This document shows, one piece after another, positions 10,286-13,327 of a stretch of DNA of 49,640 bases (position 1 is the first letter of the stretch; every line of letters starts with the position of its first letter). The DNA comes from Candidatus Methylomirabilis sp. (GTDB taxonomy: Bacteria; Methylomirabilota; Methylomirabilia; Methylomirabilales; Methylomirabilaceae). Below the pieces are notes generated by a model that ran no database searches, had not been told where the DNA came from, and saw nothing but the letters and a program-made list of their open reading frames with translations. The translations under genes and the position numbers were made by a program. The DNA lies in the NCBI RefSeq assembly GCF_028716865.1, contig NZ_JAQUOY010000020.1, positions 1 to 49,640 on the forward strand, given 5' to 3'.

Positions 10286-10362
10286 GTTAGGAGTGTGGGC
10301 TGAAGGCTGAAGTCTTTCGATATAGCCCCTCTCCCCCATTCAGTCTTCAGCCCATCTACCTA
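10286..10362. repeat. Hairpin repeat of the GGCTGAAG word family, copy 1
   Basis: GGGCTGAAGGCTGAAG (left arm) and CTTCAGCC with CAGTCTTCAGCCC (right arm) form an imperfect inverted repeat between the kinase stop and the small RNA unit. Related copies occur at 23808-23893, 43220-43318 and inside tsaD. It could act as a weak transcription barrier at the end of the kinase operon. Confidence 0.7.
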
Positions 10363-10406: not shown

Positions 10407-10435
10407 TTGCATCCGCCGAAAGGTTCCACTATCGT
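10407..10435 (+). promoter_or_regulatory. Promoter of the small RNA / mini-ORF unit
   Basis: TTGCAT (10407-10412) and TATCGT (10430-10435) are spaced by 17 bases, followed by an A/T-rich TAAATG. The predicted start near 10443 is only a few bases upstream of the extended Shine-Dalgarno at 10449. Confidence 0.45.
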
Positions 10436-10463
10436 AAATGTACACAAGAAAGGAGGTGATCCA

Positions 10464-10511
10464 GTGGGCTTACCATTAACCATCTGGACATGTGAGGTGA
10501 TTGTAACGTAG
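10464..10511 (+). CDS. 15-codon mini-ORF behind a perfect Shine-Dalgarno
   Basis: GTG at 10464 opens a frame reading MGLPLTIWTCEVIVT and ending at TAG 10509-10511. The ribosome site AAAGGAGGTGATCC ends one base before the start codon, so the effective spacing from GGAGG to GTG is about 7-8 bases. Such complete complementarity is far stronger than for any other gene in the window. The peptide is not one I recognise. It may be a true small protein, or a leader peptide whose translation controls the folding of the downstream stems. Confidence 0.35.
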   Translation: MGLPLTIWTCEVIVT

Positions 10512-10575
10512 GCGTGTCCTCCTCACCGGATCGACTGCCTATGGATTTCGCCTGCGGAATCCCAGCAGTCACCGA

Positions 10576-10650
10576 GCCCTGAAGCCTTGGCTTTGTCCGA
10601 CCAGGCCCTGCGATGCTATCGCAGGGAAGCGCTTCGGGGCTTTTTATTTT
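10576..10650 (+). terminator. Nested Rho-independent terminator of the small unit
   Basis: Outer stem GCCCTGAAGC (10576-10585) pairs with GCTTCGGGGC (10631-10640) with one G-U pair, followed by TTTTTATTTT. Inside it a perfect stem CCCTGCGAT/ATCGCAGGG (10606-10626) with a 3-base loop is nested. Confidence 0.75.
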
Positions 10651-10719: not shown

Positions 10720-11103
10720 CTACTTGATCTGGAAGCTCTCTCTTAGCCGCATCATCGGGTCCTTCACCCAGCTACTGCAACTGCCCTTCTCCTCGCGGAG
10801 CCACGACTCGCCGAAAGCATCATATTCGATCCAGAAGACCCGGTTATCGAAGAAGTGGACCCTCAGAATCTCTATCTGTCCGGGTTTCATCCCGGGCACC
10901 CATCGTCCCCAGACCTCCTGCTTCAGATCCATGGGGCCCTGGGAGGAGACGAGCTTTGAGACCTGTTCGCGGGTCATGCCCAGCACAAGTGTCTGATACG
11001 CCTGGCGTGTAGGCGTGACGGCCGGCGGCGCTTGCTGCGCGAAAACCGGGGTTGCTAGGTAAAGCATTGCTACCAGCAGCAGGACGCTGGCTGCTCGGGT
11101 CAT
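10720..11103 (-). CDS. Small exported protein, possibly BamE/SmpA-like
   Basis: The 127-residue product begins MTRAASVLLLVAMLYLATPV followed by FAQQ, a Sec signal peptide with an AxA-type site and no lipobox cysteine. The mature part has the pattern LVLGMTREQVSKLVSSQGP followed by aromatic strands (VWGRWVPG, VHFFDNRVFWIEYDAF), which loosely resembles the BamE/SmpA-OmlA fold. ATG 11103 is preferred to the upstream in-frame start at 11214 because AAGGAGGG lies just before it. The gene is 64 bases downstream of gspD on the same strand, so it may be the last gene of the secretion operon. A role in secretin assembly is possible but not shown. Confidence 0.65.
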   Translation of the reverse strand: MTRAASVLLLVAMLYLATPVFAQQAPPAVTPTRQAYQTLVLGMTREQVSKLVSSQGPMDLKQEVWGRWVPGMKPGQIEILRVHFFDNRVFWIEYDAFGESWLREEKGSCSSWVKDPMMRLRESFQIK

Positions 11104-11167
11104 GATACCCTCCTTCCGTCTAGGTATGAGATTCGACAATAACGATCTTCGATATCGGATCCCTGAT

Positions 11168-13327
11168 CTACCATCCAAGATCGCCTTTCCCCTGATCACC
11201 CGACTTCGGCGCAAGTCCTGATGGGGAGATCGTGGGTGACGATTTCATCAGCAACTCCAACGACTCCACCCTACTCCTGAACTGCTCGCTCATAAGCTTA
11301 CCCTCTTCCGGGGTTCCAACGACATGAGGTGTGATCAGGATGAGGAGCTCGTCCCGATTGAGCGACTCAGTGGTTCCACGGAACAGATATCCGAGCAGCG
11401 GGATCGAGCTTAGAAACGGGATGCCGGTGTAGCTTTTCGATTTGTCAGTCCGGATGATCCCTCCAATAAGCAGCGACTGGCCATCCTGCACCACCACCGC
11501 TGTCTTTGTTGTCGTCTTGTTGAACGAGGCTCCGCCCTCAGACGCGGCCGTGGGACTGCCTCCGGTTGGAGCTATGCTGGTATTTTCTGTTTCTATGTCC
11601 AGGGTGACGAATCGCTTCTCATTCACGTGCGGCTTAATCTTCAGGATAATCCCGATATCCTTGCGCTGGAACGTGCTGAAAAGATTGGAGGTGGCGCCAC
11701 CCTCGGTACTGCTAGTGGTCCCCAAAGTTTGTACGCCGGTGGGAATCGGTACCTCCTGACCGATCTGGATAGCAGCCTCCTTGTTATTCGCCGTAAGCAG
11801 ATGCGGGTTGGCCAGGACCTGCGCTTTCGACACCTCAGCAAGATTTCTTAGGACCACGCGAACTTTATCCTTGTCTACGAAGGCGAAGGTAAGACCAGAG
11901 GCGAGTTTTTTTGTCGGGTCCTGCACAACTCCAGCGATCGCCTGGGTGATGGGACCGCCAAATTGTCCCCCCACGAGGAATTGACCGCTCCTGATAATCT
12001 CCTCCAAGCTAAAACTAAAACCGTCGCTCAAGGTGATCCGGGCGAGCATAAGCTCGATCAACACCTGTTTCGGAACGATGTCGATTTGCTTGATCGTTGC
12101 CTCGATGATCTCGTAGTTGCGCGGAGAGGTCTTGATGATCAGCGCATTGGTCGCTTCATCGGATACAATGGTCACCTCGCCTACGACTTCACCAGGCGCC
12201 GCCTCAGCGCCTGGCGGCAGCGCGGCCCCTTGGGTTGACGAAGCGGGGGCGGGCTGGCCAGGGGCCGGTTGGGGTGTAGGAGCGGCCGGTGGCGGCGTAC
12301 CAGTTCCCGGTTTTGCGGACGGCTGGCCCGGTCTCGTCCCTGCCGACGCGGCACCCCGCACCAGGTCTCGGCGACCGTAGAGGGTATTGAGGGTATTCGC
12401 CAGCTCGGCGGCCTTCGCGTTCTCCACGAAATAGACGAAGATCCGCTGGATATTATCCCGCTTAGATGGGATATCAAGGGCCTTAATAGTGTCGAGCAGC
12501 CGATTGATCGTTGAGCTGAAGCCGGCAATGATCAGGCTGTTGGTCTCCTTGTGGACCAACATCTTGGCGCCCTTGGCTAAGAACGACTGAAGGATCTTGG
12601 CCATCTCGTCGGCAGAGAGGTGGTCAAGGTGAACAATCTGGGTCATGTAGCGTTCCCGCTCTTCAGCACGTTCTTTTCCCACCTGCACGTCCTGAGGTTC
12701 CTGCTGGGCGACCGCGATCGGGACAATCTTGTAATAAGAGCCTTCCTTCACCGCCACTAGGTTATTGACCTCCAGCACCGATTCCATGATGGAGAAGACC
12801 TCGGTAGCGGGAACCCTGGTCGTCGTCCGCATCGTGACGTTTGCCTTGACGCCGGGGCCGATGATGAAGTTGATCCCGGTGATATCGGCGATGGAACGAA
12901 GAACCAGCTCCAGATCGGCGTTGTCAAAGTTCAATGAAACGTACTGCGGTCCTCCAGGCTGGGCGGGTACTCCTCCTTTCGCCACATTATCGGGGTAAGC
13001 CCCCGATCCTGTTGAAGCAGCAGGAGCGCCTTCTTTCGACCCGGACGGAGGCACCGTGGCAGGTTCCAATTCTGTCACTGGCGAGCTTTCTGCCTTTTCC
13101 TCCTCTTTTTTCACCTCCATCTCTGTCTCCGCTACCTGCGGAGGCGCAGGGGTCGTAGCGGTGATCGGAGAAGCAGGCACCGGCGTCTGCGCCGGGGCTT
13201 CGGCCTTTGGAGGTGGTGCCTTCGGCTCCTGCCTGAATAGTCCCACAGTGTCAAAGCCAGTGCACGCTGACAGCAAAACCGCAACCGTCGAGATCAGAAG
13301 CACGAGAACATGCTTACGACTAGCCAA
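11168..13327 (-). CDS. gspD: Type II secretion secretin GspD, lipoprotein form
   Basis: GspD forms the outer-membrane channel of the type II secretion system. The N-terminus ends in LLSAC, a lipobox, so the mature protein should carry an N-terminal lipid. A Pro/Ala/Glu-rich linker follows, then the N0 domain (VSLNFDNADLELVLRSIADI), repeated N-domains, a second Pro-rich insert (PGTGTPPPAAPTPQPAPG) inside N3, and the C-terminal secretin barrel ending with the GGIIRTD and IPFLSSIPLLGYLF blocks. I choose TTG 13327, which follows AAGGAG with 6 bases between and gives MASRKHVLVLLISTVAVLLS as leader. In-frame starts at 13357 and 13375 would add a charged extension. It is preceded by gspC. Confidence 0.93.
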   Translation of the reverse strand: MASRKHVLVLLISTVAVLLSACTGFDTVGLFRQEPKAPPPKAEAPAQTPVPASPITATTPAPPQVAETEMEVKKEEEKAESSPVTELEPATVPPSGSKEGAPAASTGSGAYPDNVAKGGVPAQPGGPQYVSLNFDNADLELVLRSIADITGINFIIGPGVKANVTMRTTTRVPATEVFSIMESVLEVNNLVAVKEGSYYKIVPIAVAQQEPQDVQVGKERAEERERYMTQIVHLDHLSADEMAKILQSFLAKGAKMLVHKETNSLIIAGFSSTINRLLDTIKALDIPSKRDNIQRIFVYFVENAKAAELANTLNTLYGRRDLVRGAASAGTRPGQPSAKPGTGTPPPAAPTPQPAPGQPAPASSTQGAALPPGAEAAPGEVVGEVTIVSDEATNALIIKTSPRNYEIIEATIKQIDIVPKQVLIELMLARITLSDGFSFSLEEIIRSGQFLVGGQFGGPITQAIAGVVQDPTKKLASGLTFAFVDKDKVRVVLRNLAEVSKAQVLANPHLLTANNKEAAIQIGQEVPIPTGVQTLGTTSSTEGGATSNLFSTFQRKDIGIILKIKPHVNEKRFVTLDIETENTSIAPTGGSPTAASEGGASFNKTTTKTAVVVQDGQSLLIGGIIRTDKSKSYTGIPFLSSIPLLGYLFRGTTESLNRDELLILITPHVVGTPEEGKLMSEQFRSRVESLELLMKSSPTISPSGLAPKSGDQGKGDLGW

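Follow-up and report, generated by a model that had tools for sequence, protein, structure and literature searches.

The closest described systems are two RNA families that are filed in Rfam as small RNAs. RF02471 (Ms_IGR-5, "Actinobacteria sRNA") is listed as an sRNA gene, and RF01867 (CC2171) is an sRNA of Caulobacter. No link between CC2171 and RF02471 is drawn in Rfam, and the accessible part of the literature gives a function for neither. Homologues of the RNA described here are known from the literature to be transcribed in S. lividans, S. avermitilis and M. smegmatis. The homologues of M. abscessus and M. smegmatis are ribosome-protected (PMC4974804); since canonical non-coding RNAs are also listed there as protected, these mycobacterial footprints are weak evidence of translation. 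For Caulobacter, PMC4117421 describes ribosome pausing at internal Shine-Dalgarno (SD) sites and two earlier-predicted ncRNAs, not necessarily CC2171, that were found to be translated. Two functional classes are likewise comparable. Dual-function sRNAs encoding a peptide are small structured RNAs with an ORF. In transcription attenuators and leader peptides, translation of a short ORF would remodel the downstream RNA ahead of a terminator, and a regulated gene is needed downstream on the same strand.

The window analyzed here is a stretch of 49,640 nt from a contig of Candidatus Methylomirabilis sp. (NZ_JAQUOY010000020.1). One RNA in this window (Table 1) was matched by cmscan to RF02471 with 62.7 bits (E 1e-11), i.e., above the gathering score of 45 bits that defines membership. 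The match extended from end to end of the model (positions 1-184 of 184) and was the only one in the genome. Thus, the RNA, which the first-pass annotation could not assign to a family, is now placed in RF02471. CC2171 was rejected as its family, with 18.6 bits (E 0.06) being far under the gathering score of 75, and none of the 95 genomes of the phylum Methylomirabilota reached this 75-bit cut-off. A tmRNA was also discarded, as ARAGORN, which seeks tRNA-like ends and a tag frame, reported none in the window.

Table 1. Positions of the features of the RNA within the window.
Feature	Positions	Strand	Basis
Promoter-like elements TTGCAT (10407-10412), 17 nt, TATCGT (10430-10435)	10407..10435	+	read from sequence
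Whole RNA, Ms_IGR-5 (RF02471) member, about 207 bases	10442..10648	+	cmscan 62.7 bits; fold z -4.5
SD1, AAAGGAGGTGATCCA, complementary to 16S 3' tail	10449..10463	+	read from sequence
P0 hairpin around start, UCCAG (10460-10464) with CUGGA (10484-10488)	10460..10488	+	MFE fold; RNAalifold, three clades
Micro-ORF, GTG start (10464), 15 codons MGLPLTIWTCEVIVT, TAG stop (10509-10511)	10464..10511	+	sequence; frame conservation
SD2, GAGGTGAT, internal SD-like site, GAGGTG ending 9 nt before stop codon	10494..10501	+	excess hybridisation to 16S tail
P1 5' strand, GGTGATTGT, within last codons of ORF	10496..10504	+	MFE fold; RNAalifold; own-versus-swapped test
P1 3' strand, GCAGTCACC, resembling anti-SD end of 16S	10565..10573	+	MFE fold; RNAalifold; own-versus-swapped test
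Nested intrinsic terminator, outer arms GAGCCCTGAAGC / GCTTCGGGGCTT, then U-tract to about 10648	10574..10648	+	MFE fold; arms conserved in genus

The 5' ACACAAG, the SD and the elements UGGACAUGUGAGGUG and GCAGUCACC are common to RF02471 and the window RNA, and the Rfam structure line agrees with the window RNA in having the P0 hairpin and the terminator. In contrast, AGuCACC is unpaired in the Rfam structure line, whereas here it is paired with the end of the ORF (P1), with covariation. The host belongs to Methylomirabilota, whereas the family is named after Actinobacteria; a further difference is the entry of the family in Rfam as an sRNA gene. With CC2171, the window RNA has a GAAAGGAGGUGAUCC start module, a short ORF and a terminator in common, but the ORF and the internal helices are unlike. 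It differs from dual-function sRNAs in that its peptide is poorly conserved, and from attenuators in that no regulated gene follows on the same strand.

The first-pass annotation had proposed a covariance search in related genomes. At E 0.01, RF02471 was matched in 31 of the 95 genomes of the phylum, and the 19 above the cut-off were those in the genus and in one sister family. A degenerate pattern applied to GTDB genomes yielded 116 loci, mostly from Rokubacteria, Methylomirabilota and delta/Binatia-type MAGs, the other taxa including Myxococcota, Nitrospirota, Acidobacteria, actinobacteria and two Rhodobacteraceae. The sequence-only model R1 added alphaproteobacteria, actinobacteria and Acidobacteriota (17 of 119 genomes); many of the weaker R1 matches reach only to about model position 43 and, given the complementarity of SD1, were presumed as a group to lie antisense to the 16S end. 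Since the main pattern required GTGAGGTG and R1 was trained on pattern matches, its conservation is to some extent a product of the search itself, except in the RF01867 matches; the consensus of RF02471 itself also contains GTGAGGTG. The alphaproteobacterial sister form matches RF01867 under its cut-off. Within Methylomirabilota (L001-L030), the version found in two families is actinobacteria-like, and that of the others is Rokubacteria-like and has a long 5' flank; either horizontal transfer or old divergence may lie behind this difference. On a contig labelled as a Klebsiella pneumoniae MAG (L105), the ORF peptide was identical to that of a delta/Binatia-type locus (L051), suggesting misbinning.

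The promoter-like elements follow the pattern TTGCNT-N17-TAnnGT, which is kept across the genus and is looser in family f2. A consensus scan of the locus called neither promoter nor terminator, and both are supported by the genus-wide conservation of this pattern and of the arms of the terminator. The predicted fold of -88 kcal/mol (z -4.5) was not reached by any of 200 shuffles. The 17-spaced promoter, the several stems and the nested terminator described in the first-pass annotation were confirmed, the promoter-like elements and the terminator by direct reading and conservation in the genus although the consensus scan calls neither. The feature was to be refuted, according to that annotation, if close relatives did not conserve promoter, SD and stems; this check was run, and the feature survived. 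The predicted anatomy of the RNA is well supported by these comparisons.

SD1 had been described as exactly complementary to the 16S 3' end, which is borne out by the recurrence of its 12-mer AGGAGGTGRTCC antisense to the genome's own 16S 3' end. Its core GGUGRUCC, in which R faces a U of 16S, recurs across phyla, the pattern search of GTDB genomes itself having required GGUGRUCC. The genome contains eight copies of AGGAGGTGRTCC, including those in the window RNA and antisense to 16S. Two further copies have a candidate start at SD distance, i.e., a GTG opening a 116-codon frame (L297) and a TTG opening a 76-codon frame (L300), and the remaining four are without a start codon at this distance. 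Thus, a full SD is uncommon in this genome, as had been claimed, but not necessarily unique to this RNA. Within the window, AGGAGGTGRTCC with up to two mismatches was found 28 times versus 11 expected, so SD-like sequence is enriched generally.

The micro-ORF of 15 codons had been noted before and is read directly from the sequence. An in-frame ATG, GTG or TTG without a stop before GAGGTG was present at 132 of 143 non-redundant non-alphaproteobacterial sites, compared with 17 ± 4 after letter shuffles of the spacer and with 20 and 8 in the two shifted frames, and the stop followed exactly 9 nt past the internal GAGGUG at 135 of the 143; relatedness among the sites is not accounted for in these counts and shuffles, and GTGAGGTG had been either required or modelled when the sites were collected. 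The 11 sites without such a start include four pattern matches that lack the ORF and were set aside as non-members (L046, L109, L145, L146), one where the regular expression had caught an earlier GAGGTG (L048) and three where CTG occupies the start position in frame. In relative L016, a 3-nt insertion keeps the frame, and nearly all ORFs of Rhodobacterales have 18 codons. Translation of the micro-ORF, as judged from its frame, is strongly supported. At the actinobacterial loci L277, L279, L280, L283, L284, L289-L293 and L296, ATA, ATT or ATC stands at the start position, in frame with the conserved stop.

The internal SD-like site, SD2, is placed at a constant distance from the stop codon. In every group, hybridisation to the 16S tail is best for windows that begin 14-16 nt ahead of the stop. 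The signal persists in alphaproteobacteria where GAGGTG itself has changed, and it is weaker (z about -3.6) in CC2171-type loci, which were fetched without requiring GAGGTG. The two sites are spaced almost alike in the window RNA: 5 nt separate the GAGGTG of SD1 from the start codon, and 6 nt separate that of SD2 from the last sense codon.

Helix P1 is formed between the last codons of the ORF and a CAGUCACC-like strand just ahead of the terminator, with covariation; in family f2, this 3' strand is GCAATCGCC. When Methylomirabilis, family f2 and actinobacteria were each folded on their own with RNAalifold, P1 was recovered in all three, and in 113 of 134 cases pairing with the own partner was superior to pairing with swapped strands (Wilcoxon p 2e-19, relatedness ignored). 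In Rhodobacterales, a helix at the ORF end has different types of base pair in different sequences at a given column, i.e., compensatory changes. There, SD1 in turn faces an internal anti-SD ahead of the terminator: of 55 sequences, all 55 have the pairs at columns 12 and 14, 54 have that at column 15, and 37 retain the outermost one (column 11). Family membership, the micro-ORF, the predicted P1 and the geometry of SD2 are supported by these sequence comparisons.

The reading favored here, held with roughly even confidence, is that the window RNA is a stand-alone, structured, translated regulatory RNA whose fold would be set by ribosome occupancy and which would not act through its peptide. 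Since relatives in many phyla retain the frame, the fold and the contacts to the ribosome, whereas the peptide is not kept, the RNA probably works via being translated and not via its product. The 30S subunit would load on SD1, and the ribosome would translate the 15 codons, opening P0 and P1, and would then pause at the UAG, as its 16S tail would be bound by SD2. Which RNA conformation exists would thereby depend on ribosome occupancy. The freed anti-SD-like strand could re-pair, in Rhodobacterales with SD1 itself, and the output would be a signal on translation state or ribosome supply, given in trans or through ribosome holding. Pausing at the stop, the switching of the fold and a controlled target are what we infer from this arrangement.

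The conserved frame and stop could also be explained if the RNA were the mRNA of a functional micropeptide, with 15 residues here. E-V ahead of the last three residues recurs across the non-alpha phyla, and at this position several CC2171-type alphaproteobacteria have E and then V, I, T or F. However, residues and length vary widely across clades outside this motif, and in the non-alpha sets the bases that encode E-V are also those of GAGGTG and P1. Moreover, the C-terminal codons and residues of Rhodobacterales change along with the pairing partner of the helix. Since the residues vary and these codons follow the pairing partner, a functional peptide is unsupported; a conserved peptide was rejected as the driver, and the micropeptide explanation is considered unlikely. 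Thus, of the small-protein mRNA proposed in the first-pass annotation, translation of the micro-ORF is strongly supported and a functional peptide is not supported. A conventional antisense sRNA that acts in trans, with an ORF that is incidental or makes the RNA dual-function, would agree with the filing of RF02471 and RF01867 as sRNA in Rfam and with a stand-alone unit ending in a terminator. Yet the most conserved stretches are the SD, the ORF end and P1 rather than an exposed seed, and the conservation of the frame speaks against an incidental ORF; an antisense sRNA is considered very unlikely.

It is distinctly unlikely that the RNA titrates ribosomes or 30S subunits, as was also proposed in the first-pass annotation, by means of two sites complementary to the 16S tail, with the ORF merely positioning them: SD1 does cover the whole 16S tail and SD2 precedes the stop at SD spacing, but very high abundance would be needed, and titration alone leaves the covariation of P1 unexplained. 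A leader or attenuator of a neighboring gene, orphaned in this genome, has to be judged by the genomic context. Upstream of the window RNA lies a GHMP kinase gene. The first ORF past the RNA that was judged to be a gene (10720-11214) has minus-strand orientation, and the minus-strand genes on this side are a 164-residue ORF without a Pfam match and then a GspD-type secretin; the earlier statement that no same-strand gene follows was therefore correct. An inverted repeat, GGGCTGAAG / CTTCAGCCC (10297-10353), is present 3' of the GHMP kinase gene and is possibly its terminator. In Rhodobacterales (L154-L172, L235-L256), yhhQ is found upstream in 34 of 37 loci, and the ribosome-rescue gene arfB follows after the terminator on the same strand in 26 of the 37; the distance from the arfB start to the SD is 177 to 328 nt (pooled with one CC2171-type locus). 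The orphan leader proposed in the first-pass annotation agrees with arfB following there while no same-strand gene follows here. However, arfB is downstream at none of the 177 non-alpha loci, and a universal downstream gene was rejected since the neighbor clusters are lineage-specific. A leader is thus quite unlikely for the window RNA.

Beyond this locus, the two families filed in Rfam as sRNAs appear to be one translated RNA class across many phyla. It is proposed tentatively, and with more doubt than the reading of the window RNA itself, that RF02471, RF01867 and unassigned relatives in many phyla form one translated, self-structured class in which a ribosome parked at the micro-ORF stop by a second SD would switch the fold, so that the RNA would report the state of the ribosome or of termination; in Rhodobacterales, this output would be wired to arfB. 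If the two families are indeed one translated class, RF02471 and RF01867 should be re-annotated. The shared geometry of SD, ORF, second SD, stop and P1 would then provide a specific hypothesis, namely that ribosomes read out RNA structure.
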